A stretch of DNA of 41,696 nt, from IMG/VR virus record IMGVR_UViG_3300028394_000138, positions 1 to 41,696 of that record; one strand, 5' to 3'. Of the stretch, positions 5,529 through 39,231 are shown one piece after another. Every line of letters begins with the position of its first letter. Positions within the stretch are counted from its first letter, which is position 1. Origin of the DNA: a virus. A program made the translations under genes and the position numbers. The notes beneath the pieces are model-generated. The model saw only the letters and a list, made by a program, of their open reading frames with translations, did no database searches and was not told the DNA's origin.

Positions 5529-5568
5529 ACTAAGCCCCTCACGGCCTACAGTCCGGAGGGGTCTTAGT
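5529..5568. terminator. Bidirectional terminator between convergent operons
   Basis: An ACTAAG-CCCCTC arm (5529-5540) pairs with GAGGGG-T-CTTAGT (5556-5568), leaving one bulged base. An A5 run lies just left of the hairpin, giving a U-tract for leftward transcripts. The right side ends TTGTATC, a weaker tail for rightward ones. It sits exactly where the rightward early operon and leftward module converge. Confidence 0.75.
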
Positions 5569-5579
5569 TGTATCAGTTT

Positions 5580-5602: not shown

Positions 5603-6007
5603 CTACTTGCCGTAGTCTTCTTTGAGAAACTTTCCACAGTAAGGCCAAGGCTTAGAGCCACGATCTACATATATGTGTAATGCCACATAGAACTGTTCAA
5701 GCAGGGTGGAATCCTTCGGTTGTTTGCCGCTGTTGCCACCATGAGCAATCCAAGTCCGGGGATACTCGATCTGGAATGCCCCCTGAAACTGTTTGCGTTT
5801 GCCGCTGACGGCGTTGAGCCGACCTGATGATTCACACATGGCTAATTTTTGCCACGATAAAGGTAATTGATCTAACTCTAAGTCTGGAATCTCCACCACT
5901 TTTGCACTTACTTGCTTGGACTTTATCTCGACATGGATAGGGGCGTTTGGGGTCAGCGAAATCGCCAACCCCAAAGCCACCAGTCCGATTATGAATCGGT
6001 GATGCAT
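5603..6007 (-). CDS. Secreted Rpf-like lytic transglycosylase
   Basis: The start at 6007 is chosen because AAGGAGAAG lies just upstream and the peptide then begins with a membrane/signal helix (residues 4-19). Residues 50-134 match the resuscitation-promoting-factor/transglycosylase domain: WQKLAMCESSGR with catalytic E59, a GAFQIEYPRTW strand, and C124 in WPYCGKF able to pair with C58 as in Rpf proteins. It should cleave the glycan strand of peptidoglycan outside the membrane. Rpf domains are typical of Actinobacteria. Being downstream of a two-helix membrane peptide, it may form a second lysis or entry unit away from the CHAP cassette. Confidence 0.8.
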   Translation of the reverse strand: MHHRFIIGLVALGLAISLTPNAPIHVEIKSKQVSAKVVEIPDLELDQLPLSWQKLAMCESSGRLNAVSGKRKQFQGAFQIEYPRTWIAHGGNSGKQPKDSTLLEQFYVALHIYVDRGSKPWPYCGKFLKEDYGK

Positions 6008-6135
6008 TACTTCTCCTTCCACAGTAGGGCTGTTACCAACCCCAGTATCGGTATCGCTATAAGTATCGGTTGTTTCTCTGCTATCCCAACAGGGAGAGTA
6101 AAGAATAAAAGTATTACTAGGAGAAGCCCAATCAT
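6007..6135 (-). CDS. 42-residue two-helix membrane peptide, holin-like
   Basis: ATG at 6135 overlaps the upstream stop (ATGA), and its own TAA overlaps the next ATG (TAATG at 6007). The peptide is MIGLLLVILLFFTLPVG, a short polar turn AEKQP, then ILIAIPILGLVTALL and a Lys-Glu-Lys tail. Two hydrophobic helices around a turn is the layout of small holins. Its place directly before the Rpf-like transglycosylase supports a lysis or wall-access role. The reading frame is convincing; the holin role is inference. Confidence 0.65.
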   Translation of the reverse strand: MIGLLLVILLFFTLPVGIAEKQPILIAIPILGLVTALLWKEK

Positions 6136-6605
6136 AGGCTAACCTCGTCACCAAAGTCCTCGATTGACCACCATTCTTCACCCGAGAATCCAGCTCGAGC
6201 CTCGGAATCTTGTAGCCAATAGAAGACTTTATCGTCATGCGGTAGGTCTGAAGTCTCACCCTCAAACCCATAAGGGATTACCCCAAGAGTGGCAGTTATC
6301 TCTCTCTTACTCTTGTCCTCTTGGTCAGTAATCTCCAGAGTTGCAGAGTAATAAAGCGGAGAGGCAAGAGCCTCGGCTATTACAGGGTTAGTTGTCTCAT
6401 GCTCATTCATAATCCTTAGCGAAGTGCCAAGTCTGGTAGCCATGATGTCTTCTAACTCCATAAGGACAGGGTTACACGATCCAATAGACTCAAAGTTGCC
6501 GTTGATTTCAACAGTTCCATCAAGCCGATTAGATTCTTGGTCTGTATCCCACTCCCAAGTCTTAGTCTCGGTGTCGTAAGTGATGATGAAAGAGTGGCGT
6601 GTCAT
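6132..6605 (-). CDS. Conserved-looking unknown, 157 residues
   Basis: This acidic protein is rich in beta-prone segments (HSFIITYDTETKTWEWD; YYSATLEITD; REITATLGVI) and ends in an acidic tail with a WWSIEDFGDE stretch. The ribosome site AGAGGTG lies 7 bases before ATG 6605. No motif is recognised. It overlaps the 53-residue gene upstream (ATGA) and the membrane peptide downstream (ATGA), so it belongs to the same coupled operon. Confidence 0.65.
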   Translation of the reverse strand: MTRHSFIITYDTETKTWEWDTDQESNRLDGTVEINGNFESIGSCNPVLMELEDIMATRLGTSLRIMNEHETTNPVIAEALASPLYYSATLEITDQEDKSKREITATLGVIPYGFEGETSDLPHDDKVFYWLQDSEARAGFSGEEWWSIEDFGDEVSL

Positions 6606-6763
6606 AGTTGCACCTCTCTTAGCACTCGGACTCTTGGTTCTGGACAGTCTGAGTAAGGTTTCTCGTTGCCTTCATTATCTTCACAAGAACACCAGCCGAA
6701 CTTCATGACCTGAGTCTTGTGAGTAAGTTCCGCTAACTCACCCCATGAGATTGAATCTTCCAT
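6602..6763 (-). CDS. 53-residue unknown with three Cys
   Basis: ATG at 6763 overlaps the upstream TAA, and the TGA at 6602-6604 overlaps the next ATG. The peptide includes WGELAELTHK, then GWCSCED and SDCPEPRVRVL, giving C25-x-C27 and C40. A GGAGG-like site (GAGGTGGAG) lies upstream. The Cys set could bind a metal, but three ligands are too few to assign a fold. Confidence 0.55.
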   Translation of the reverse strand: MEDSISWGELAELTHKTQVMKFGWCSCEDNEGNEKPYSDCPEPRVRVLREVQL

Positions 6764-6957
6764 TACTCCACCTCTTCCACTTCATAGATAGTCGTATCTA
6801 TTGAATAGTTTTTCTCGTAAAAGTTTGGCAACTCTTCGCTGGAAAGTTCGCCTTCCTTTACCTGTTCAATCAGTTTCTTAGCGTGTTCAAGTGAGTCAGC
6901 ATCAAAGCCCCACTTGTTGTCGTATTCCTCATGAACCATGACTACGAATCTAGGCAT
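6763..6957 (-). CDS. 64-residue unknown, acidic
   Basis: The sequence begins MPRFVVMVHEEYDNKWGF and continues with a helix SLEHAKKLIEQVKEG and an acidic end. The alternation of a strand, then a helix, then a strand suggests a small alpha/beta domain. AGAGGTGAAG provides the ribosome site. TAATG overlaps occur at both ends. A similar strand-helix opening (PTYSMEIV...DSEEQAEEKY) is seen in the 63-residue gene at 8054, so the two may be distant relatives. Confidence 0.6.
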   Translation of the reverse strand: MPRFVVMVHEEYDNKWGFDADSLEHAKKLIEQVKEGELSSEELPNFYEKNYSIDTTIYEVEEVE

Positions 6958-7403
6958 TACTTCACCTCTGCCTTCTGTAATTCGTCAATCTTTATTGAAG
7001 CCTCTTTAAGAATTGACTCGAAGATAATCTGGTCAATCGGATAAGTCGCTAAGACTTGTTGAATCAGATCACTAGGGAATCCTTGTAGTCCCAGCTCTTT
7101 TGCGAGTGCCTGTTCTACCTCGAATCCGCAATCTGTTCTGCCACTCTTCTTCTTATCCTCTTCAATCTTCTCTTCGCAGATGTCAAAGAGAGTCTTGTCT
7201 TCAGACTCTTCAATCAGGTCAGCCCAATCAGGGTCAGCAATCTTGTTGCCTTCCGAGTTATACCAATACGAATCCATTCCGTATTCGTGCATCTCACCTC
7301 TGTAGTAGAAAATCTCGCCTTCATACTTCAGGGTCATTCGATACGCTGTCGAGGTCGAGAATGAATCCGCCTCTACAACTTCTAACTTATCGTTTATGTT
7401 CAT
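6957..7403 (-). CDS. 148-residue unknown, first gene after leader copy A
   Basis: Start 7403 is chosen over an in-frame ATG further upstream because it follows the 12-mer leader motif found at two other starts. The protein is acidic, with aromatic-rich strands (YRMTLKYEGEIFYYRGEMHEYG) and a Glu/Lys helix around residues 70-90, and then ALAKELGLQGFPSDLIQQVLATYP. No family is recognised. It heads the downstream part of the leftward module. Confidence 0.6.
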   Translation of the reverse strand: MNINDKLEVVEADSFSTSTAYRMTLKYEGEIFYYRGEMHEYGMDSYWYNSEGNKIADPDWADLIEESEDKTLFDICEEKIEEDKKKSGRTDCGFEVEQALAKELGLQGFPSDLIQQVLATYPIDQIIFESILKEASIKIDELQKAEVK

Positions 7404-7410
7404 TATCTTT

Positions 7411-7476
7411 CTTTCTGTAGGTTGGTTGGTATTCAAGACGAACACCCGAAGAGGCAGGGAGAAGATTCCCCCTGCC
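7411..7476 (-). promoter_or_regulatory. Leader element copy A: 12-mer plus hairpin
   Basis: Read on the minus strand, ACCTACAGAAAG (7422 down to 7411) ends 7 bases before ATG 7403. Some 30 bases further upstream is a 7-bp hairpin, GGCAGGG/CCCTGCC (7453-7459 with 7470-7476). The same combination precedes the genes starting at 8553 and 9258. The AGAAAG part may act as a weak ribosome site. The conserved 5' half is not explained by that. Confidence 0.65.
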
Positions 7477-7486
7477 CTATCGGCTA

Positions 7487-7654
7487 CTAATCTTTCAGTT
7501 GCGTTAGGTCAATCATGTGAGTCGCTGTCTTGCTTTCTTCAGCGTTATGCCTATCGGTAATCCACCACTCTAAGCCTTCAAGTCTTGTTGCCAAGTCGTG
7601 ATTCGCTAAGGGATCACTAGAATAAATTACGACCCATGTCTTATGAACTGTCAT
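7487..7654 (-). CDS. 55-residue unknown
   Basis: ATG 7654 follows GAGGGGGTGAAGTA, a strong ribosome site, and overlaps the upstream TAA. The peptide reads MTVHKTWVVIYSSDPLANHD, then a helix and WWITDRHN, ending in a polar tail. No motif is recognised. It is the last gene before leader copy A. Confidence 0.55.
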   Translation of the reverse strand: MTVHKTWVVIYSSDPLANHDLATRLEGLEWWITDRHNAEESKTATHMIDLTQLKD

Positions 7655-7743
7655 TACTTCACCCCCTCTCGGCACTTATTACAGTCACAATTTGCCACGC
7701 AGATAGGGCAATCAGTAGAGCAATCGCCAGCATGAATAGTCAT
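7654..7743 (-). CDS. 29-residue six-cysteine mini-protein
   Basis: ATG 7743 to TAA 7654-7656, overlapping the next ATG. The peptide is MTIHAGDCSTDCPICVANC then DCNKCREGVK: Cys at 8, 12, 15, 19, 21 and 24. Six Cys in 17 residues suggests a compact metal-binding knuckle. The ribosome site is modest (AGG about 7 bases upstream). Too short for homology by eye, but frame continuity and overlaps with neighbours support translation. Confidence 0.5.
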   Translation of the reverse strand: MTIHAGDCSTDCPICVANCDCNKCREGVK

Positions 7744-7751
7744 AGCCACGC

Positions 7752-7859
7752 CTATGCCTCGCAATCATGACCATAAGCCCACTCTTGCGAGTCGGTGTCA
7801 TCTAATAAGTCGAATACCCGAAAACACTCGGGACACTTAGCCTTAGTCCGAATCTTCAT
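7752..7859 (-). CDS. 35-residue mini zinc-finger-like protein
   Basis: MKIRTKAKCPECFRVFDLL then an acidic stretch and AYGHDCEA: C9-x2-C12 paired with H31-x-C33. This looks like a minimal zinc finger or a truncated zinc ribbon. It begins three bases after the stop of the upstream Cys-rich gene and ends eight bases before the six-Cys peptide, making three Cys-rich small genes in a row. Confidence 0.55.
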   Translation of the reverse strand: MKIRTKAKCPECFRVFDLLDDTDSQEWAYGHDCEA

Positions 7860-7862
7860 TAC

Positions 7863-8054
7863 TTAATCTCCAATCTTCTCGGTGTTGTGATAGCAGTCGT
7901 CACTATCCTCGACAACGCAGTCGCAGTCACCGCCGTTGCCGCAAGGGCAATCGCCGCCGTTAAAATAAATGTCGTATTTTTCCTCGGCTTGTTCTTCCGA
8001 GTCGGCAGTAATCATCAGGGTTTGGGTCACTATCTCCATGCTATAGGTTGGCAT
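7863..8054 (-). CDS. 63-residue acidic Cys-rich protein
   Basis: Start 8054 follows AGGGGGGAAG and overlaps the upstream TAA. The first half (MPTYSMEIVTQTLMITADSE) is strand plus helix. The second half is GGDCPCGNGGDCDCVVEDSDDC, with five Cys and many Asp and Gly, a likely metal-binding loop. An in-frame ATG ten codons upstream lies inside the neighbouring gene and is rejected. Function unknown. Confidence 0.6.
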   Translation of the reverse strand: MPTYSMEIVTQTLMITADSEEQAEEKYDIYFNGGDCPCGNGGDCDCVVEDSDDCYHNTEKIGD

Positions 8055-8224
8055 TACTTCCCCCCTTCTTCTGGAAAGTAACACTCGAGAGATGACTCGA
8101 AGCAGTATCTATCCCCGACCCAATTCACATGATCCAAACCCCAAAGGATTAGACCAAGGAGAAGCAGGGCATTTATTCCAAGCGATAGGGCGAACAGAAT
8201 CTCGCCTCTCTTGTTTAGTTTCAT
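8054..8224 (-). CDS. 56-residue single-pass membrane protein
   Basis: ATG 8224 overlaps the upstream TGA (ATGA), and its TAA overlaps the next ATG. MKLNKRGE is a basic N-terminus, followed by the helix ILFALSLGINALLLLGLILWGL and a tail with two Cys (C41, C48). By the positive-inside rule the tail should be outside the cytoplasm. Function unknown; a superinfection or membrane-modifying role is possible. Confidence 0.6.
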   Translation of the reverse strand: MKLNKRGEILFALSLGINALLLLGLILWGLDHVNWVGDRYCFESSLECYFPEEGGK

Positions 8225-8553
8225 AGACCGAATTCACTTTCGACAGAAAGAAGCTCCGAGACGAAAGCCTCGCAATCTAGGGGGCGGTTAGACCACTCGA
8301 CCAAAGCCTCACCGAGTTTAGACATCTCGACATAACCGAGAGAGTCGCTAGGGTCTGACCAGTCTGCAAGAGGTGAGCCAAGATGCTCGGAACTGTAAGC
8401 GACTAGGTCGAGGAACTTTCTGAATGGTTTCATGTCTTGGTAATTACTAGCCCATGAATAGAGGGATTCGATTCCCTCGCAATAAGTGGGGGCGGAATCG
8501 GAAGCCCACGCTAGAGCCCCCACGCTCTTAGGTGTCTTGGTTTCTGTGTTCAT
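8221..8553 (-). CDS. 110-residue unknown, first gene after leader copy B
   Basis: This acidic helical protein contains TYCEGIESLYSWASNYQDMKPFRKFLDLVAYS read in two helices, then an EALVEWSNRP helix. No catalytic motif is visible. The start is 7 bases after the leader 12-mer. Phrases such as NYQDMKPFRKFLDL echo the NDYQDINAFLTLL of the neighbouring 160-residue protein, also expressed from this leader type, so the two may be remote paralogues. Confidence 0.6.
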   Translation of the reverse strand: MNTETKTPKSVGALAWASDSAPTYCEGIESLYSWASNYQDMKPFRKFLDLVAYSSEHLGSPLADWSDPSDSLGYVEMSKLGEALVEWSNRPLDCEAFVSELLSVESEFGL

Positions 8554-8560
8554 GTCTTGC

Positions 8561-8634
8561 CTTTCTGTAGGTGTTGGGTGTTGCAGGGGTTTAGTAACCC
8601 CACTAAAAGGGGCAGAATCCTAAGACCCTGCCCC
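8561..8634 (-). promoter_or_regulatory. Leader element copy B: 12-mer plus two hairpins
   Basis: ACCTACAGAAAG on the minus strand (8572 to 8561) ends 7 bases before ATG 8553. Upstream are a 6-bp hairpin GGGGTT/AACCCC (8586-8591 with 8596-8601) and a 7-bp hairpin GGGGCAG/CTGCCCC (8609-8615 with 8628-8634). On the minus strand the latter is followed by TTTT, so it could also terminate the upstream pair of genes. Confidence 0.65.
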
Positions 8635-8648
8635 CAATAGTGAGACGG

Positions 8649-8789
8649 CTAAGCGGTGACTACCTCAATCCCTGCCCGACTGTAAGCCTTTACCAAGGCG
8701 TTTAGTCGAGTCTTAGAGAGAGGGGCAAAGACCAAGACCTCACCAGTCTCGGAATCTAAAAGAGTCACGAAAGGATTACTTACTCGCAT
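8649..8789 (-). CDS. 46-residue unknown
   Basis: ATG 8789 overlaps the end of the DUF4192-like gene by 14 bases and has GAGGGGGTG upstream. The peptide MRVSNPFVTLLDSETGEVLVF continues with a helix TRLNALVKAYSRAGIEVV. The strand-turn-strand-helix-strand pattern suggests a small folded domain. A hairpin follows within 15 bases. No family recognised. Confidence 0.55.
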   Translation of the reverse strand: MRVSNPFVTLLDSETGEVLVFAPLSKTRLNALVKAYSRAGIEVVTA

Positions 8790-9258
8790 TGACAGACACC
8801 CCCTCGAGGTCTGCAAGACCCTCGGTTACTCGAGGGTGTAACTCGCTACGCATTGAAGCAAAGGCAGCAGGTGGCCACCCTGCCCCAAAGACTCGACCCA
8901 AGAGAGCAGCGAGTGAATTAGCAGGGTCTAACTCTTTCGCCTTGTTTAGATGTGAATCGGTGTCTTCCCGATTCTCGGACTCGTAAGCATAAGCAGACCA
9001 AAGGGCATGAACATGAGCCGATTCCCCACCGATAGCGGTGAGCAAAGTGAGAAAGGCGTTTATGTCTTGGTAATCGTTTAGTGATTGACCAAGAGCCCCG
9101 AGTGCATAATCTCGAATCTGTATCGAGTTAGCGATACCGAGAAAGGCGGTCTTGATGTCTGCCTCTTCAAGAATTGCAGAATCGGCAAAGCGAGAGAGGC
9201 AAAGGTCTAGCGAATTCTTAGCCTCGAGGTGAGTGGGGAATTTAGTTTCTAGTGTCAT
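8776..9258 (-). CDS. DUF4192-like protein, 160 residues
   Basis: Start 9258 is taken because the leader 12-mer lies 11 bases upstream. The C-terminal half (ALWSAYAYESENREDTDSHLNKAKELDP then SLAALLGRVFGAGWPP) resembles the tail of the actinobacterial DUF4192 family, where a helical AL..A...DP..LA.LL pattern is followed by a G..P motif. The N-terminal part is shorter than in bacterial relatives. DUF4192 has no known activity. It is the first gene of the leftward module. The similarity is recalled, not searched. Confidence 0.5.
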   Translation of the reverse strand: MTLETKFPTHLEAKNSLDLCLSRFADSAILEEADIKTAFLGIANSIQIRDYALGALGQSLNDYQDINAFLTLLTAIGGESAHVHALWSAYAYESENREDTDSHLNKAKELDPANSLAALLGRVFGAGWPPAAFASMRSELHPRVTEGLADLEGVSVNASK

Positions 9259-9269
9259 GAGTTGATTCT

Positions 9270-9303
9270 CTTTCTGTAGGTAAAGAGTGGGAGAGATTCC
9301 CAC
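9270..9303 (-). promoter_or_regulatory. Leader element copy C: 12-mer plus hairpin
   Basis: ACCTACAGAAAG on the minus strand (9281 to 9270) lies 11 bases before ATG 9258. A 6-bp hairpin GTGGGA/TCCCAC (9287-9292 with 9298-9303) sits only 5 bases further upstream. No gene precedes it on this strand, so here the hairpin cannot be just an upstream gene's terminator. Confidence 0.65.
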
Positions 9304-9439
9304 CCCCAAAGTGTGACAGAGAGAAGCTCGAGATTCAATGACCAGAGCCCTCGAGTCTTATGGATCACGAGATACCCCTCGACTCTTGAAAGTGGCGTAA
9401 TTCAATGGGTTTAGAGATTCCCAAAGTGTCCGAGATTCC

Positions 9440-9502
9440 CAAAGACCCAAGACCCAAGACCTCGACCAAGACCCCAAGACCCCAAGACCAAGACCCCCAA
9501 GG
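9440..9502 (-). repeat. AAGACC(C) tandem repeat, G-quadruplex-prone on minus strand
   Basis: About eight imperfect units of AAGACC/AAGACCC follow one another. On the minus strand, the transcribed leader of the leftward module, this reads as G-runs (5, 4, 4, 3, 3 and 3 Gs) mostly separated by TCTT. That fits the general pattern for a G-quadruplex. A CTGCCCC repeat follows at 9516-9532. Confidence 0.6.
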
Positions 9503-9771
9503 TCTGCCCGATTCCCTGCCCCTGCCCCTGCCATGCCTAGACCCCTCGACCCCCTGCCCTAGGTCTTAGGCGATTACTTAAACGGCGAACACTTAAAGAG
9601 GCCTAGTTGCCGAGGGTCTGCCCTGCCTCGAGTCTGTCCGACACGCCGTTAAAAGCACTTAACATAATGTTAGTTATCGGCTTAGGGGGGTTAGACACGC
9701 AGGGGGGATAAATTGACCCGAGTGCTTAATAGGGCTGGGGCCCCTGTATATATGTACCCAGAAAAATATTT

Positions 9772-9801
9772 TTGATAGGATCTTGAGTTGTAAAATAGGC
9801 T
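9772..9801 (+). promoter_or_regulatory. Weak candidate promoter for the late operon
   Basis: TTGATA (9772-9777) and TAGGCT (9796-9801) are 18 bases apart and fit a loose -35 and an actinobacterial TANNNT -10 box. The placement upstream of the operator-like palindromes is suggestive. The match is common by chance in AT-rich DNA. Confidence 0.25.
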
Positions 9802-9833
9802 CTGAGCAGGACTTTTACACACAATAGATAGAA

Positions 9834-9849
9834 TGTGATACAAATCACA
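9834..9849. promoter_or_regulatory. CRP/GlxR-type operator, perfect palindrome
   Basis: TGTGA-TACAAA-TCACA is an exact match to the general CRP-family half-sites TGTGA and TCACA with a 6-base spacer. Actinobacteria have cAMP-responsive CRP/GlxR regulators with this site type. It lies in the late control region, about 230 bases before the terminase start. Recognition by a host regulator is inference. Confidence 0.55.
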
Positions 9850-9860
9850 GGGCATAGTGT

Positions 9861-9881
9861 GGGATAAAACCTATTTATCCC
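9861..9881. promoter_or_regulatory. Operator-like hairpin next to a TATA-rich box
   Basis: GGGATAAA (9861-9868), loop ACCTA, TTTATCCC (9874-9881): a perfect 8-bp inverted repeat. Directly to the right is TTATATATAGT, which contains a good -10-like TATAGT (9890-9895). A regulator bound to the palindrome would cover the -35 area of such a promoter. Confidence 0.45.
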
Positions 9882-9902
9882 GGCTTATATATAGTAGGAG
9901 GA

Positions 9903-9951
9903 TAATTACTTGCTAAAGTAATTAGACGACTACCCGGCTCTAGGGAGCCGG
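9903..9951 (+). other. Two consecutive perfect hairpins
   Basis: TAATTACTT/AAGTAATTA (9903-9911 with 9916-9924, loop GCTA) is followed by CCGGCTC/GAGCCGG (9934-9940 with 9945-9951, loop TAGG). The second can also refold, since CTAGGG at 9940 pairs with CCCTAG at 9958. No T-run follows, so these look like leader RNA structure or protein-binding sites rather than terminators. Confidence 0.5.
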
Positions 9952-10055
9952 AGCGAGCCCTAGCGAGCAAAGGCGACCTAGAAGCCCCTAGTAAATGCCC
10001 AGTAGTCTGTTCTTTTTCAGAACCGCTAAACCCAATGAAAAATCTTTGGCGACCA

Positions 10056-10081: not shown

Positions 10082-11935
10082 ATGAGTAAACAAGAAGAGA
10101 CAGCCAAGATCAAGGCAAAAGTAATCCGTCTGATTACTGAAGGCTGCACAGTCGAAGATGCCATGCGGCAGGTCGGCAGGTCAGCAAAGCTGTGGGATTA
10201 CTACCGTTCCACGGATAAAGAATTCAAAGAGACTGTAGATAAGGTTAGAGCTGCTAGATCAAAGCATGGCCGCATCCAGTCTGAGGAATCCCTTGAGATG
10301 GATTTCCGTACTTTCCGCAAAGAGTATCTAGAAGCAGACACATTCCCACATCAGATGAATATCATCAACCTTCTTGAAGGTAATGACCCTGAGTGGATGC
10401 ATGACTCGATGCAGTATGAAAAGGGTCGACCACAGTATGTGCTGGTCAATGTGCCCCCAGAACACGCCAAGTCCATGACTACCTCGATTGACTATCCGGT
10501 CTACCGGATCTGTATGGATCCCAACATCCGTATCATGATTGTCTCGAAGTCACAGCAGAAGGCAACAGAATTTATCTACGCTATTAAGCAGAGACTGACT
10601 CACCCATCGTGGCAAAAACTGCAACTTGCTTACGCTGCTGGCTCAGGCTTCAAGTCTAAGTCAGCCACATGGCAAGCTACGCAAGTTTACCTCGGAGACG
10701 AACTGCGTGACTCAGACCAGAAGGATCCTACGATTCAAGCAATCGGTATCGGAGGACAGGTATACGGTGCGAGAGCAGACCTGATTATCCTAGACGACTG
10801 TGTGACTATGTCTAACTCCCACGAATACGAAAAACAGATTCGTTGGATTCAGCAGGAAGTCTTAACTCGACTCGGGCCTACCGGCAAGCTTTTAGTTCTT
10901 GGAACTCGAGTAGATTCCATTGATCTCTATAGAGAACTCCGTAACGGTGAACGCTACCCAACAGGTAAATCACCTTGGACATATCTGGCGATGCCAGCAG
11001 TCCTAGAGTTTGCAGAAGATCAGAACAACTGGAAAACACTTTGGCCTAAATCAGACCGCCCTTGGCAGGGCAGCGAAGAAGAGGCAGACGAAGACGGTCT
11101 ATACCCACGCTGGGATGGCAATTATCTATCCATGCGTAGAAGTGCATTAGACCCAAAGACTTGGTCGATGGTTTACCAGCAAGCAGATGTTGATGAAGAC
11201 TCAACCTTCAACATGACTTGCGTTAAAGGTTCCATTGACAGAATGAGAATGATCGGGCCAATCGTTCCGGGCAATCCCGGACACCCCGAGACAGTAGAGG
11301 GTCTCACCATCATCGCAGGGCTTGACCCAGCGATAGTTGGTGATACGGCGGCAGTTGTTGTAGCTGTAGATCGTAGGAGAAAGAAAAGATATATCCTCGA
11401 TGCTGCGACTATAACTAAACCGTCACCGCAAGCCATCCGTGATCTCATCACTACATTTACGGAAAAGTACAAACCATCGGAATGGATGGTTGAACGAAAC
11501 GCCTTTCAGGGTTATCTGACACAGGATGAGAATTTACGGCAATGGTTAGCAAGTCGTGGTGTGCTTCTTAGGGAACACACCACATCTAGAAATAAGTGGG
11601 ATGTTGGATTTGGTGTCGCTGCAATGGCTACCCTATTTGGTAGCGTTGAATCCAATGGTAAGCATCATCGAGATAACTTGATGCACTTGCCTTCAGATAG
11701 ACACGAAGGCATCCGATTACTTATTGACCAGTTAGTAACATGGTCGCCAGAGACTAAGAACAAGACAGACCTTGTTATGGCCCTCTGGTTCTGTGAGATT
11801 AGAGCAAGAGAGATCTGCCAGTTCGGTGAGTATGGCGGAAAGTTCGTACACAATGAATTCCTCACCCGAGCAGATGCCGACAAGCGACAGGTCATCAACC
11901 TTGATGAGTGGGCCGCAGATCGCCGTTTGGCATAA
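10082..11935 (+). CDS. terL: Terminase large subunit with N-terminal HTH
   Basis: Start 10082 has AGGAGAG upstream; an in-frame ATG at 9995 lacks one. Residues 5-45 look like a small-terminase-type helix-turn-helix (TEGCTVEDAMRQVGRSAKLW). The ATPase follows: a Walker-A-like VPPEHAKS, a Walker B LIILDDC, and a coupling segment LVLGTRVD. The C-terminal RNase-H-type nuclease shows GLDPAIVGDTAAVVV with the first Asp, then VERNAFQG and late acidic residues. The 617-residue enzyme cuts and pumps DNA into the prohead. No separate small terminase gene is visible, so the HTH may replace it. Confidence 0.92.
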   Translation: MSKQEETAKIKAKVIRLITEGCTVEDAMRQVGRSAKLWDYYRSTDKEFKETVDKVRAARSKHGRIQSEESLEMDFRTFRKEYLEADTFPHQMNIINLLEGNDPEWMHDSMQYEKGRPQYVLVNVPPEHAKSMTTSIDYPVYRICMDPNIRIMIVSKSQQKATEFIYAIKQRLTHPSWQKLQLAYAAGSGFKSKSATWQATQVYLGDELRDSDQKDPTIQAIGIGGQVYGARADLIILDDCVTMSNSHEYEKQIRWIQQEVLTRLGPTGKLLVLGTRVDSIDLYRELRNGERYPTGKSPWTYLAMPAVLEFAEDQNNWKTLWPKSDRPWQGSEEEADEDGLYPRWDGNYLSMRRSALDPKTWSMVYQQADVDEDSTFNMTCVKGSIDRMRMIGPIVPGNPGHPETVEGLTIIAGLDPAIVGDTAAVVVAVDRRRKKRYILDAATITKPSPQAIRDLITTFTEKYKPSEWMVERNAFQGYLTQDENLRQWLASRGVLLREHTTSRNKWDVGFGVAAMATLFGSVESNGKHHRDNLMHLPSDRHEGIRLLIDQLVTWSPETKNKTDLVMALWFCEIRAREICQFGEYGGKFVHNEFLTRADADKRQVINLDEWAADRRLA

Positions 11936-11943
11936 GGAGAAAA

Positions 11944-13698
11944 ATGCTTTCAGTTCAAGAAGTTGCAGCTAAGGTTGAACGCCTTAAAACACGCAACATG
12001 GATCGTGACCGCCGTATGTCAGATGTTCTTGCTGTCCGTCAAGGTCGTATGCAAGATGTATTCTTCGGTCAGTTCTCAGATGAGTATCCGAAGCCACTCA
12101 TCGCTAACATGGTTGACATTGCAGCTCGTGACCTTGCCGAGGTAACTGCCCCTCTTCCAGCAATTAACTGTGCCTCATCCAACATGACCTCCGATGCAGC
12201 TCGTAAAAAGGCTGAGATTCGTACACGCATTGCCAATCACTATGCCAACAAGTCTGATCTACAACTTCAGATGTATCAGGCAGCAGACTGGTATTACACC
12301 TATGGCTTTGCAGCAGGTATGGTGGAGATTGACTTTGACACTAACAATCCACGCATTCGCATGCTTAATCCATTTGGTCTTTACTTTGAAAAGGATCGCT
12401 TTGGCTCTGTAACCTCTATGGCTCAGATCATTATGTCTGATTCAGAGTCACTATCTGCCCAGTATCCAGAGTATAAAGCTCAGATCAACAGCAAGTATCG
12501 TATGAAGTCTACGATTTCCATGGTTCGCTACCATGATAAGTATCAAGATATGATCTTCTTGCCGGAGTTAGATAACTTAATTCTAGCAAATACCCCTAAT
12601 CTTCTAGGTAAAATCCTTGTAGATGTAGCAGAACGACCAACAGTTGATGGTCAAACTCGTGGTCAGTTCGATGATGTTCTACCAGTTCAGATGGCTAAGG
12701 CACGATTTGCACTTCTACAGCTTGAAGCAGCTAAGAAGTCAGTCAATGCACCTATCGCTATCCCACCAGATGTTCAAGAATTTACCCTTGGGCCAGATGC
12801 TTTGCTTCGATCTAACACACCAGAGAGAATCCGTAGAGTTCCAATCGAACTTCCTAACGGAGTCTTTGCTGAATCACAGGCACTAGAGCGTGAACTCCGT
12901 ATGGGTTCTCGCTATCCTGAAGGCCGAACAGGTCAGATTGATGCATCTATTGTTACAGGTCGTGGCGTTCAAGCCCTTATGGGTGGCTTTGATTCACAGA
13001 TCAAGGCAGCACAGGCAGTCTTTGCTCGCTTCTTTGTAAACCTTATCGGTATTGCATTCTGTGTAGATGAGCAAGTCTTTGGTTCAAACCAGAAAACTAT
13101 TCGTGGATCCGATGATGGAACACCATACGAATTAAAATACACACCATCGAAAGACATCAACGGTGATTACACAGTAGATGTCCAGTATGGTCTCATGGCA
13201 GGACTAGATCCTAACCGTGCTGCAATCTTTGGATTGCAACTTCGTGGAGACAAGTTAATTTCTCGTGACTTCCTCCGCCGCAATCTTCCATTCTCAATCA
13301 ATGTCACACAAGAAGAACAACGAATCGACATCGAAGAACTTCGTGACTCATTAAGAACCGCAGTAGCACAGTACGCAAACGCAATCCCAATGCTTGCTAC
13401 TCAGGGTGGGGATCCAACAGAAGCTGTTAAGAGGCTCGCCGACATCATTGAAGGTCGAGCAAAAGGTCAAGCATTGGAGTCAATCGTTGCTAAAGCGTTT
13501 GCTCCAGTAGAACAACCGGCAGCGACTGCGATGGCCCCCGGTGCTTCGCAATCCCCTATGGGGATTCCGGGAGCGGCCCCGGCTGCCGGTTCCCAAATGG
13601 TATCTGGCCCCGGCCAGTTTTCTCGTAGAACTGATCTAGCACAAGGTGGAACCCCACCGATGGCAGATCTTTTGGCTTCCCTAACTGGGGCAGCTTAA
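11944..13698 (+). CDS. Portal protein
   Basis: A 584-residue protein directly after terminase, with AAGGAG before ATG 11944. It has a long, mixed helix/strand body (ADWYYTYGFAAGMVEIDFD; MLNPFGLYFEKD), central helices, and a low-complexity Ala/Gly/Pro C-terminus typical of phage portals. The portal is the dodecameric ring through which DNA enters and leaves. The call rests on gene order, length and these features. I see no conflicting candidate. Confidence 0.8.
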   Translation: MLSVQEVAAKVERLKTRNMDRDRRMSDVLAVRQGRMQDVFFGQFSDEYPKPLIANMVDIAARDLAEVTAPLPAINCASSNMTSDAARKKAEIRTRIANHYANKSDLQLQMYQAADWYYTYGFAAGMVEIDFDTNNPRIRMLNPFGLYFEKDRFGSVTSMAQIIMSDSESLSAQYPEYKAQINSKYRMKSTISMVRYHDKYQDMIFLPELDNLILANTPNLLGKILVDVAERPTVDGQTRGQFDDVLPVQMAKARFALLQLEAAKKSVNAPIAIPPDVQEFTLGPDALLRSNTPERIRRVPIELPNGVFAESQALERELRMGSRYPEGRTGQIDASIVTGRGVQALMGGFDSQIKAAQAVFARFFVNLIGIAFCVDEQVFGSNQKTIRGSDDGTPYELKYTPSKDINGDYTVDVQYGLMAGLDPNRAAIFGLQLRGDKLISRDFLRRNLPFSINVTQEEQRIDIEELRDSLRTAVAQYANAIPMLATQGGDPTEAVKRLADIIEGRAKGQALESIVAKAFAPVEQPAATAMAPGASQSPMGIPGAAPAAGSQMVSGPGQFSRRTDLAQGGTPPMADLLASLTGAA

Positions 13699-13718
13699 AA
13701 CGCATCTGGAGGTGCAAT

Positions 13719-13865
13719 ATGTTCGGAACAAAAAAAGGTGCAGTAGCCCCAGCAATGGTAAAGGGCCCTATTATGCCAAAAGGTACCCCAAAGGGTAAGT
13801 CTGCAATGCAGAAGCTTGGCGAAACAGGAAAGTCAGCATCAGCATCAGGTAAGAAAGCTAAGTAA
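13719..13865 (+). CDS. 48-residue Lys-rich basic protein
   Basis: GGAGGTG precedes ATG 13719. The peptide MFGTKKGAVAPAMVKGPIMP ends SASGKKAK, with about ten Lys and almost no acid. Similar tiny Lys/Gly/Ala proteins occur at 27440-28024 in this genome. They may bind DNA or fill positions in the head. No family recognised for this one. Confidence 0.6.
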   Translation: MFGTKKGAVAPAMVKGPIMPKGTPKGKSAMQKLGETGKSASASGKKAK

Positions 13866-13886
13866 TAATCTTAGGAGGGCGAGTCA

Positions 13887-14126
13887 ATGTCAGAAGATAA
13901 CTTCGATGAACTCGATGATATGTTTGTATTGGCTCGCCCTGCAAAGAAAATAGATTTTGTTTACGCAGTAGCAGATTTACTATACAAGATAAGTTATTCA
14001 TTCGCAGATTTCTTCTCATTGATAACAAAAGTTATACATTCACATTCTGTTAACGAAGCAAAGAAACAGTATATGTGGGAGAAGATGACCAAAGACATTG
14101 AAAAAATGGAGGCTAAAGATGGCTGA
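13887..14126 (+). CDS. 79-residue unknown
   Basis: TTAGGAGGGC precedes ATG 13887. The acidic start (MSEDNFDELDDMF) is followed by amphipathic helices (VYAVADLLYKISYSFADFFS) and a charged C-terminal helix ending EKMEAKDG. It overlaps the next gene by 8 bases. In this position, after the portal, a head-associated role is possible but unsupported by motifs. Confidence 0.65.
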   Translation: MSEDNFDELDDMFVLARPAKKIDFVYAVADLLYKISYSFADFFSLITKVIHSHSVNEAKKQYMWEKMTKDIEKMEAKDG

Positions 14127-14502
14127 AGGCCCATACATTGGTAGGCAAGCAGCACAATCCATTACCGGTGGAGCATATGGTGACAATCAAGAACTCACTC
14201 AATTACAAACTGCTCCCGGAGTTCCATTAGCAGCAACTGAAACAGGTGCAATGGGTGGGGGAATTGGCCCTATGATCTCAGCACCTGCTATGCCACAGCG
14301 TAATTTTTCTACACCTAATCCAAATGTAGATCAATCTATTACATACGGTGCAGGTTTTGGTGATGGCCCGGGTAATGAAGTATTACCTATTCCACCATCA
14401 GCACCTGATGAAACTGCCACACTTATCCGCCAACTTATTGCCCTATATCCAGATCCAGACTTGGTTCGATTAGGTCAAAGATTAGATTATGAGAAGCGTT
14501 AA
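14119..14502 (+). CDS. 127-residue Pro/Gly-rich virion protein candidate
   Basis: Start 14119 is chosen because GGAGG lies 9 bases before it. The sequence is low in structure for 90 residues (Gly, Pro, Ala, Thr) and ends with a helix ATLIRQLIALYPDPDLVRLG. It overlaps the giant gene as TAATG. Such disordered proteins next to portals often act as head completion or assembly factors; the role is not shown. Confidence 0.6.
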   Translation: MAEGPYIGRQAAQSITGGAYGDNQELTQLQTAPGVPLAATETGAMGGGIGPMISAPAMPQRNFSTPNPNVDQSITYGAGFGDGPGNEVLPIPPSAPDETATLIRQLIALYPDPDLVRLGQRLDYEKR

Positions 14503-17500
14503 TGGCCGGAAAAACCGGAGGCACATTTGGTGCTGGTAGTCTCGGTGCATCGCTAGGATCTATTCCTCAAGAAGGAACAGCAGCTTACGATACATACATA
14601 CAGGCTCAGCAATCTAAGTATTTAAGTCCAGATTTTGCCAAGCAGTTAGCTGCTATGGCTAAGGCATACCCTGCTGCATCTGTCGGATCAGTCATGGGCC
14701 TTACAAAGTCTGGTGCTGTTATCGGTGGTAATACTGCCAATGCTTTGACCACACTTGATGGATCAGCATTACTTGATGCACAGCGTAACGCAGCCATTGC
14801 TGCTGCTGCTAAGTTAAAAGAGCAGAACTCTGCGAAGAAGGGTTCACCTGCTGACTTCTTAGCACCACTTACTCGTACTGCTTTCATGCTTTTATCAACA
14901 CCATTTGAAATGCTAGAAGCCACCGTTCGTAACGGTGTATCTGGCAAGGGTGGCATGAATGTTCTTGATGAGACACAAACAGGGCAAGCTCTTATCAACC
15001 TTTTCAAAACAGGCAAGATTGATGTAGGTACTGGTTTTCTTGGTGCAGATCAAAACTCTGCGGTAGGTAAAGCATTACTTAATGCAAAGATTGCTGCTGG
15101 CCCTACTATGAAGGGTGGAGTTCCTTGGACTTATTCAAGTGGACTTACACAAGCACTATTCGATAACCCAGAGACTAAAGCCGCCAGAACATTCCAAGCG
15201 GTTTCAGGATTCGTTCTTAACCTAGCAGCAGATCCACTTACTTATGTTCCCGGTGTAGGTTTACTTAAGATCGGTAAAGAAGCTGGAAAGGTTGGCGTAA
15301 CACTTCGTGTTGGGCCAAAGGCCGCAGCTCGTGCAGCAGAAGCGAAGGCAGCACCGATCAAGGCTGTGGCTCGTGATGTTGAAGATGTCATGGGTGAAGT
15401 CGGTAAAGTCCGTGCAGAAGCAAGAGCTGCATCTGGCGACATCAATATGCTTGAAGCAGACATAATCAAGCACCAAGATGATCTCAATACTATCGCCGAA
15501 AAGGTAGATAATACATACCAGACTTATTACAAAGCAAAGTCTGAAGCAGATTTATTAGATGCAGAATACGGTCAACTCCGTCAACAGCGTGATGCTTTAA
15601 TCACAGGTCTTAAGACTGCAACTGATACAAAAGGTCAACTTGTAGGTGAGGCTCGTAGAGCTGAAGATCTTATGGCTCACCGTATTGAACTCAATACTGC
15701 TGGTCGTGCAGCAGAGGTTCAAAGCGTTCTTGATGCTAAAGGTTTTGATGAGGTAGTCCGTGCAGGACAAGTCCTTAAAGAGCAAGAACAGTTGGCTCCC
15801 GGACTCATCCACACTCTTGATGAAGCAGCCCTTAAGAAGGGTGATCGTGCAGCCACTCAAGGTATCCGTAATGGAATAGATGCTGTAGTTCGTGTAGCAG
15901 CAAAGCAGAAGCCACGCCTTATCAAGTGGACAGGTCTTATCAAGGCTGGAGATTCACCACAGGCAACTCGTGTATCTAACGAGATTGGTTCTAACCTTAT
16001 TGATATTGGAACTGCTGCTGGTATCCAAGAGTCTAAGTTGCAGACCGTTCTTGATGTAATCGATACACCCGGTGCAACACACGCAGAACTTATTGATTCA
16101 GCAAAGAAAGCTGGACTAACAGAACAACTATTTGCAGCATACGAAAGAGCCGGTATCCAAGGCTTTGAAAATGTTGGTGCAACTCGTGGCATGGGTGGTG
16201 GCGGATACGCTTATTTCCCACGAACAGTAGATCCATTTGATGCAAAGATTTCTGACTTTGGTCGCTTTAAGGCTGATGCTATTAACTCACCTGACATCAA
16301 TGATCTTGGTGTTCAAGCACTTACAACTAAGGGTGCAATTACCCAGCAGGTTACAGGGTTAGTCGAGGGTGCAGCAGCACCTCGTCTTACAGTCATGGAA
16401 CAACTTGCCAACATAAACAGAGATCTTTCCGAAATGGGCAAGGTTACAAAAGGTGTCCAAAAGGAACTCGCCAAGGCTGAAGAAGCTTGGAAGAATAATC
16501 TTAAGTATGTTCAAGATCGAGTTAAGTCTGATGACGAGGCTCGTATGCTTCTTGAAGAGGCTAGAGGTCGCAAGCAACTAGCAATGGAAGCAGAGTTCGG
16601 TCTTATGACCGTAGGTGGTAAGCAGATCCTTGATTACCAGCAAGCTGCTAAAGCATTCTTTGGCCCAATGGGTCAGAACGCTGCAAAGTTTATTGCTGTC
16701 CACTATGGCCCAGAACAATACGATGATCTATGGCGAGCAATGAATGGCAACATCACAGTTGATCTAGCCAAGCGTTTGGCTGCTGCTACTTCTGAAAAAG
16801 AAGTTATGGGATTGCTTGCCGGTGAAGTTGGCCTAGAACTATCTCGTGGAACCAAGGTTGGACTTGCAGCTCAGTCTCGTGCAATCCAGTTCCAGTCAAG
16901 TTTTTATGCACCTAATTCATTGAAGTTACACCATGAACTTTTTGCTAAATACTTACTTGATGCAACAGATCAATCATTATCATTTTTAAGAACTAATAAA
17001 GTAACTGCACCGTTTACACGGTTTGCACCTACTAAGAATCTTATTCACCTAGACGATGTAGATACATTGGTCAAGGAAATGAATGACACTTTGCCATTCC
17101 TTAAGGCATCTCCTGAACTACAGAAGACATCCGTTAAGGCAATGATGGCTGCTACAACCTCGACTGAACGATTCAATGTATTCATTGACACACTCAAGTC
17201 TTTGGTTAAGGAGAAGGCTCCTAACCTAACAGAAGAACAGATCCGTATGCTCAACGATGCGGCCCGAGTATTTAAGAAAGAAGCAGATGCTAACCGAAAG
17301 TTCTTGGCACAAGTTGCTGGCAAGGACATCGGCACACGAGAATTTAAGGTCGCTGGAAAAACCCAGAAGTTCACACAACTGGATCCACTTATTGACTCTC
17401 AACTTGCAAATTTTATCAAGTGGCCTGACATCGATTCAATCCGTCAGCTTACAGGAAAGACAAGAAACCTTTTCTCACAGTCACAAAATGCACAGCAACT

Positions 17501-26084: not shown

Positions 26085-26112
26085 GAGGGGGGCAGGGCAA
26101 CCTGCCTCCCTC
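26085..26112 (+). terminator. Hairpin after the capsid gene
   Basis: GAGGGGGGCAGG (26085-26096), loop GCAA, CCTGCCTCCCTC (26101-26112): 12 pairs with one G-T. It is followed by TCTATTAAC, a weak U-tract. It probably trims transcript levels after the capsid gene, or protects the capsid mRNA 3' end. Confidence 0.65.
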
Positions 26113-26131
26113 TCTATTAACAAGGAGAATC

Positions 26132-38477: not shown

Positions 38478-38719
38478 TGGATACATTCAAAAGCATTCTC
38501 TCAAGAATCGTTGCAGTAATCGCAGCAGAATCATTGGGAGTAATCGGTGCAGGTTCACTTGTAGGTATTGAGGTATGGCAAGCAGCCGTACTGGCAGGTG
38601 CCTTGGGTGCAGCACGAGTACTGGAAGCTCTAGCTCGATTCTATCTAGCAGACGGAACACTATCAGCCGAAGAAATCAACGAAGCATTTGCTAAGGTTGA
38701 TAAGAAAGCGAGTGCATGA
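38477..38719 (+). CDS. Holin-like protein, 80 residues
   Basis: Two hydrophobic segments: RIVAVIAAESLGVIGAGSLV and WQAAVLAGALGAARVLEALA, followed by an acidic/polar C-terminal helix (AEEINEAFAKVDKKA). This is similar to actinophage holins that sit next to the endolysin. ATGA overlap with the endolysin start. Holins time lysis by opening the membrane. Confidence 0.7.
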   Translation: MDTFKSILSRIVAVIAAESLGVIGAGSLVGIEVWQAAVLAGALGAARVLEALARFYLADGTLSAEEINEAFAKVDKKASA

Positions 38720-39231
38720 TGGGTCAAAGAGCAGACTTCATTACAGTAGCAAAGGGTGAACTCAATGTAATTGAGGGCCCTAAAGATAACGAGACCAAGT
38801 ATGGAGCCTTTACTAAGGCAAACTTCCTACCTTGGTGTGGCTCATTCGTAAACTGGTGTGCCAACGAAGTTGGCTTGAAGATCCCTAACTGTGTATCCAC
38901 AGTAGCCGGAGCCTCAGCCTTCATGAAGAAGAATCAATGGGAGAAGGCAAGCGATGAAGCGACCCCTCTACCCGGAGACATCGTGTTCTTTGACTTCCCG
39001 AACGATGGAGTAGATCGAATCTCTCATGTCGGTATCGTGGTCAAGGACAATGGCGATGGTACTGTTACTTGTGTCGAAGGCAACACAGCCCCAGACAAAA
39101 AGGGTGACCAACGCAATGGTGGACAAGTCTGCCTGAAGGTTCGTGCCTTCAAAAAGAAGAATGGTTCCAAGCTACGCAGATCACAAGCCGTGACAGTCGT
39201 TGGCTTTGGTAAGCCAGTCTTTAAGTCATAA
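38716..39231 (+). CDS. CHAP-domain endolysin
   Basis: 171 residues with the CHAP/NlpC-P60 core: catalytic C41 in LPWCGSFVNWC, H104 in ISHVGIVV and an acidic VEGN motif near residue 120. A GDIVFFDF strand lies between, as usual. It is an amidase or peptidase cutting peptidoglycan stem peptides. No separate wall-binding domain is evident; the basic C-terminal KKKNGSKLRRSQ may bind the wall. Start at ATG 38716 or the next ATG. Confidence 0.88.
   Translation: MMGQRADFITVAKGELNVIEGPKDNETKYGAFTKANFLPWCGSFVNWCANEVGLKIPNCVSTVAGASAFMKKNQWEKASDEATPLPGDIVFFDFPNDGVDRISHVGIVVKDNGDGTVTCVEGNTAPDKKGDQRNGGQVCLKVRAFKKKNGSKLRRSQAVTVVGFGKPVFKS

Follow-up and report, generated by a model that had tools for sequence, protein, structure and literature searches.

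Each of the three gene chains in the leftward gene block at 5603-9303 of virus record IMGVR_UViG_3300028394_000138, a freshwater phage sequence of 41,696 bases referred to here as the window, is headed by a copy of one repeated genetic element, an RNA leader with two abutting hairpins, a conserved box and a start codon. On balance, we consider it probable that the three coupled chains of the block together form an accessory operon, in which the leaders would act post-transcriptionally to give each chain its own start and would also serve as a junction for the recombination of cargo genes. The first-pass annotation, made from the sequence alone, had nominated the block as an undescribed system. 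The module as such is not new, because an equivalent leftward module of tiny genes is present in a cultured phage, LanE43-AprF5; the undescribed part is the tandem-hairpin leader with its box, which that annotation had overlooked and of which we found no published description.

The terminase encoded in the window is 49% identical to those of the Planktophila phages LanE43-AprE7 and LanE43-AprF5 (hereafter E7 and F5), the closest among phage records and the first cultured phages of Candidatus (Ca.) Nanopelagicales (PMC10202952). A WhiB protein and a sigma-70 region 4 protein are encoded in the window, as in E7 and F5. From the kinship of the terminases we infer a host related to Ca. Planktophila, the host of these phages, a lake actinobacterium within one of the most abundant freshwater bacterial groups. 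Little is known of gene control in the phages themselves. The region has no DNA-level match to phage records; relatives were collected via the terminase, and gene content was compared across 53 non-identical modules.

Layout and Location of the Leader

Gaps of 95 and 83 nucleotides divide the block into the chains g1-g2, g3-g8 and g9-g14. The leaders occupy these two gaps and the stretch upstream of the first gene, one per chain head, and are built of hairpin 1 (HP1), an abutting hairpin 2 (HP2), an unpaired spacer of about 6 nucleotides (in this phage 14 at g3), the box CCUACAGAAAG and the start codon:

9259-9340, minus strand: leader 1, with HP2 at about 9307-9283, box CCTACAGAAAG at 9280-9270 and start at 9258
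8554-8648, minus strand: leader 2, with HP1 at 8641-8602, HP2 at 8601-8586, box at 8571-8561 and start at 8553
7404-7486, minus strand: leader 3, with HP1 at 7482-7447, HP2 at 7446-7428, box at 7421-7411 and start at 7403

Since the element also stands upstream of g1, where no gene precedes it, it is a 5′ leader and not merely the 3′ end of a preceding gene. In leader 1 only HP2 is clear, a separate HP1 being less clear in this phage than in several relatives; the same plan recurs in about 26 relatives. The 3′ half of the box is a Shine-Dalgarno (SD) sequence. The genome contains three exact copies of the box CCTACAGAAAG, where 0.025 would be expected, each of them 7-11 nucleotides upstream of a chain-head ATG. 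In raw gene calls, 67 of 102 gene starts with a preceding gap of at least 45 nucleotides have CCTA upstream, compared with 33 of 370 coupled starts. The leaders are also stably folded (z = -2.6, -3.5 and -4.1 for leaders 1, 2 and 3), and two of them rank second and third among the most stable 60-nucleotide folds of the entire minus strand.

Covariation and Covariance-Model Searches

Base pairing was assessed in separate alignments of two separate sites. At the site behind g8, 30 distinct relatives support an HP1 of 13 base pairs in the model, directly abutting an HP2 of 8 base pairs; 96.5% of cells are paired, against 88.5% when shuffled and 44-55% in slid controls, with double changes at 12 of 21 pairs. 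At the g3 site, HP1 is paired in 97.4% of cells over 26 relatives, against 79.4% when shuffled, and 64 cells carry double changes against 19. The covariation claim for leader 2 covers HP1 only, because CCTA inside the stem spoiled the per-sequence folding of HP2 in some rows. G·U cells on the mRNA strand far outnumber A·C cells (188 vs. 16), which argues that the hairpins belong to the RNA of the leftward transcript and are not a DNA palindrome.

A covariance model trained on the g8 site alone recovers both other leaders of the window, leader 1 at 24.0 bits (E = 2e-5) and leader 2 at 20.3 bits; leader 3, a training sequence, scores 89.8 bits, and the next match, the antisense of a true site aside, reaches 11.8 bits. 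Of 12 large records from close relatives, 11 have sense-strand matches to the model, mostly two or three apiece, and the sites inspected lie upstream of small-gene starts within the module. More distant phages (L034, L057 and L044) yield weaker candidate leaders. Matches in E7 and F5 (17.9 bits, E = 0.03) were rejected, as the hairpin stands before an apparent structural gene and is not the leader. A covariance-model search of Rfam 15 found no family that matches the leader.

Exchange of Hairpins Between Phages

Seven gene families follow the g8 leader over 30 loci. The start region goes with the family of the downstream gene (p = 0.002) while HP1 does not (p = 0.08), the pairwise identities of hairpin parts and flanks barely correlate (rho = 0.13-0.21), and three main hairpin types are distributed among the loci largely irrespective of the flanks. 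One case of exchange is L104, in which g8 (96%) and the next gene (90%) resemble those of L103, while HP1 and the 5′ arm of HP2 are 100% identical to L084 and 55% to L103; such a double switch within 49 nucleotides is hard to ascribe to misassembly. About 10 modules have no element after g8, and these also have no cargo behind it. Hairpin types have been exchanged between phages independently of the flanking genes.

The Genes of the Block

All fourteen leftward open reading frames (ORFs) of the first-pass annotation are present on the minus strand, where it had placed them or a few bases away:

8776-9258, minus strand: g1, 160 residues, TPR-like; ratio of nonsynonymous to synonymous polymorphism (pN/pS) 0.53-0.74
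8649-8789, minus strand: g2, 46 residues; pN/pS 0.16-0.38
8221-8553, minus strand: g3, 110 residues, PHROG 33275 (function unknown)
8054-8224, minus strand: g4, membrane protein of 56 residues, anchor gene, in 46 of 53 modules
7863-8054, minus strand: g5, 63 residues; DUF7296 below threshold
7752-7859, minus strand: g6, 35 residues, Cys-pair protein; pN/pS 0.10-0.19
7654-7743, minus strand: g7, 29 residues, Cys-rich; pN/pS 0.02-0.31
7487-7654, minus strand: g8, 55 residues, anchor gene, in 52 of 53 modules
6957-7403, minus strand: g9, 148 residues, cargo
6763-6957, minus strand: g10, 64 residues, cargo
6602-6763, minus strand: g11, 53 residues, cargo; a relative is present in phage F5
6132-6605, minus strand: g12, 157 residues, cargo; 12 protein relatives at 38-97% identity
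6007-6135, minus strand: g13, 42 residues, two hydrophobic stretches, anchor gene, in 52 of 53 modules; holin-like by appearance only
5603-6007, minus strand: g14, 134 residues, signal-anchored Rpf/transglycosylase domain, anchor gene, in 52 of 53 modules
5531-5570: probable terminator, a hairpin with a U tract between converging operons
9310-9994: divergent non-coding region separating g1 from the terminase gene, with a CRP-type palindrome inside

As the annotation had said, at least half of the products are short (9 of 14 under 65 residues) and most have no recognisable family, g14 alone exceeding a Pfam cut-off. Its account of start and stop codons overlapping by TAATG or ATGA at almost every junction was too broad: 8 of 13 junctions are of this type and the rest, including the two long gaps, are not (distances from g1 to g14 in order: -14, +95, -4, -1, +3, +8, -1, +83, -1, -1, -4, -4, -1). 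Even so, 60 dinucleotide shuffles gave a mean of 1.1 and a maximum of 3 such junctions, the opposite strand has none, and ORFs cover 95.7% of the block compared with a mean of 55.5% and a maximum of 78.6% in the same shuffles. Coupling alone does not distinguish the module, since one-base stop/start overlaps are common throughout the phage (shared bases at 1436, 5342, 14502, 20411, 21202 and 22980).

When the tiny genes were scored by codon usage against structural genes, discrimination was poor, and selection in relatives was chosen as the test for this reason. Thirteen genes have relatives in the terminase-derived set; their pN/pS from Nei-Gojobori counts was 0.02-0.76 and mostly below 0.5, so that the purifying selection whose absence the first-pass annotation had named as evidence against the genes is seen in relatives, and g7 and g6 are among the most constrained genes. 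The small genes are real, conserved and under purifying selection.

Four anchors (g4, g8, g13 and g14) are near-universal, and the remaining genes are exchangeable cargo. About 148 ORF families were predicted over the 53 modules, 64 of them singletons and some of them false ORFs, and the families outside the anchors are patchy, in keeping with the annotation's mention of non-conserved mini-gene blocks; the small genes are mostly variable accessory genes. Pfam matches among cargo representatives comprise GP88, DUF7447 and DUF7249 and are otherwise weak, and PHROG matches of cargo are to families of unknown function.

Among the anchors, g14 matches Transglycosylase-like PF06737 (43.3 bits, cut-off 27) and the RpfC structure (E = 2.5e-8), and its invariant Glu59, within a CES motif, aligns with the CES of RpfC, so that the catalytic Glu is kept. 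Because g14 is an Rpf-type transglycosylase and g13 has two hydrophobic stretches, the two are likely to form a unit for lysis or wall remodelling. Another probable wall hydrolase of the window is the CHAP protein encoded at 38716-39231. The most stable 60-nucleotide fold of the minus strand lies at 5927-5986, within the coding start of g14. The fold predicted for g8 with 33 relatives was uninformative (predicted local distance difference test score, pLDDT, of 62.6). The match of g1 to DUF4192 (PF13830) is weak, at 21.4 bits against a cut-off of 27.8 and over the C-terminal third only; 6 of 6 g1 relatives match the same family (best E = 3.7e-7). No relatives of g1 were found among phage records, nor in host genomes in one scan of genome contigs.

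In the divergent region, a CRP/GlxR-type palindrome, TGTGA-N6-TCACA, stands at 9834-9849 as the sole copy in the window. The palindrome, either exact or deviating at the outer base, is found at most 1.5 kb upstream of TerL in 41 of 55 terminase relatives, including E7 and F5; in relatives the N6 varies, and most copies lie within a conserved block ending in TTATATATAGTAGG. Control of the divergent promoters by a host protein of the CRP family is a good guess from this pattern. Short degenerate direct repeats of the CCAAGACC type are present at 9438-9497, in the non-coding DNA that precedes g1. Elsewhere in the window, a hairpin at 26085-26115 gives the plus strand its most stable 60-nucleotide fold; it separates the probable major capsid gene from the gene that follows, and E7 and F5 have a similar hairpin (L082:18774, L083:32187).

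Proposed Role of the Leader and Alternatives

In the reading we prefer, genes within a chain would be started by translational coupling to the gene upstream. At chain heads, where coupling is impossible, the leader would supply an accessible ribosome site with CCUA and the SD sequence single-stranded, and the hairpins may insulate, protect or stabilise the mRNA of the chain. Conservation of CCUA beyond the SD sequence suggests a trans-acting reader, probably a host or phage factor. As the same kind of element stands at every cassette border, the leader may also act as a junction for recombination, by which imported cargo would fall under a working start signal. A bolder form, in which the CCUA-box leader with its putative trans-acting reader would be a mobile RNA start cassette of a new class in actinophages, licensing any chain behind it and moving by recombination, is put forward tentatively and as rather less than probable. 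A general switch based on sequestration of the SD sequence was considered and rejected, the longest upstream complement of the box being no better than in shuffles (mean z = -0.3 for leader 3; slightly above shuffles for leader 1, mean z = 0.7). Upstream of the g1 homologue in L106, L109, L117, L121 and L124, a CUUUCUGU-like stretch 5′ of HP2 complements the ACAGAAAG box over 8-11 nucleotides, and an RNA switch is possible in this subgroup only.

Several observations weigh against the preferred reading: a few coupled genes in relatives have the box without hairpins, the exchange seen in L104 comes from a single metagenome contig, and the measurements made do not separate a role in translation from antitermination or RNA processing. 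The role of the leader is moreover deduced from sequence, and the reader of CCUA is putative.

The annotation's own suggestion, that the block chiefly serves host takeover or anti-defence, with the leaders then incidental, found no positive support. Patchy small cargo under purifying selection is what phage accessory regions generally show, and such a role could hold for some cargo alongside the preferred reading; none of the 43 cargo representatives, however, and none of the window genes matched a known anti-defence family in Pfam or PHROGs (no dedicated anti-defence library was searched), and the constant genes resemble wall or membrane functions, so that we regard it as unlikely for the module as a whole. 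That the leaders are processing sites of the RNase III type, as between the early genes of T7, yielding stable mRNAs, would suit the long, near-perfect HP1 in the inter-chain gaps, which in two of the three leaders follows a stop codon directly. It leaves the constant CCUA box unexplained, and with 13-16 base pairs HP1 is under the usual substrate length unless stacked on HP2; we judge this improbable.

A cis-acting antitermination RNA like HK022 put, in which nascent hairpins bind RNA polymerase and allow read-through of a long operon, is likewise improbable. The tandem hairpins, about 60 nucleotides long with a junction of 0 nucleotides, do resemble the two-stem putRNA (PMC9378689), and the first chain begins with a copy; a single put copy, however, works over 10 kb, whereas here there are two to four copies, at each chain head, and the box beside the start codon, which put does not have, is constant, in contrast to the stems, whose sequences differ widely. 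A cassette of promoter and terminator acting at the DNA level, as in T4 PeSL or the cluster K ESAS, would suit the repetition of intergenic cassettes in a plastic region and the signs of exchange there. Yet 29 of 30 leaders lack a -10 hexamer, TANNNT, within 30 nucleotides upstream of the box, no U tract follows HP1 (3-4 T per 8 nucleotides in 56 of 56 sequences, overlapping the next stem), and the wobble pairs are strand-asymmetric, all of which makes this very improbable; by its sequence, the leader is neither a promoter nor a classic terminator.

As a covarying RNA outside Rfam, the leader under the preferred reading would be a testable handle on the expression and exchange of accessory genes in such phages. 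The covariance model can help to locate and delimit modules of this kind, including genes of 29-60 residues that gene callers tend to miss.

Comparison With Known Systems

A parallel to the module as a whole is seen in F5 (PMC10202952), where a series of tiny leftward genes separates the replication genes from the terminase gene and likewise ends in a signal-peptide transglycosylase-like protein. The F5 (L083) module, at 11603-16044 on the minus strand, also encodes a staphylococcal-nuclease-like protein. Neither g8 nor the tandem-hairpin leader was found in the F5 module, which has a different start-associated repeat, GACAGGAGAA; F5 carries this repeat in 8 exact copies, of which 6 lie within the module.

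The HK022 putRNA, which antiterminates via the zinc-binding domain of the RNA polymerase β′ subunit, shares with the leader two adjacent stem-loops, a length of about 60-70 nucleotides and a place in an early-type phage transcript (PMC9378689), whereas the leader is multi-copy, lies next to start codons and has stems that are not conserved in sequence. The leader also resembles the start-associated sequences (SAS) of cluster K and the T4 PeSL elements, yet departs from both in their defining properties. PeSL elements are repeated intergenic stem-loops in plastic regions with a proposed role in gene shuffling (Arbiol 2010; Comeau 2014); a PeSL is reported to combine an early promoter with a stem-loop terminator, while the leader has neither a -10 hexamer nor a U tract and carries a box before the start codon instead.

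Of the known systems, the SAS and ESAS of cluster K come nearest to the leader in position and arrangement. With the cluster K SAS, the leader shares a short, conserved, asymmetric repeat a few nucleotides upstream of an ATG and in one orientation, which overlaps the SD sequence with conservation extending further and precedes non-structural genes that follow gaps exceeding 50 nucleotides; some SAS also have an upstream inverted repeat. The spacing to the start is 3-7 or 3-9 base pairs for SAS and 7-11 nucleotides for the three exact copies of the leader box, and the 13-base-pair SAS consensus GGGATAGGAGCCC does not occur in the window at up to two mismatches. The 17-base-pair inverted repeats of the cluster K ESAS hold a SigA-like promoter and do not support RNA pairing, whereas the leader hairpins covary as RNA and, with TANNNT in 1 of 30, are without a -10. 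The comparison bears on the role of start-associated sequences in actinophages, as the pairing seen here is, unlike that in cluster K, clearly at the level of RNA.

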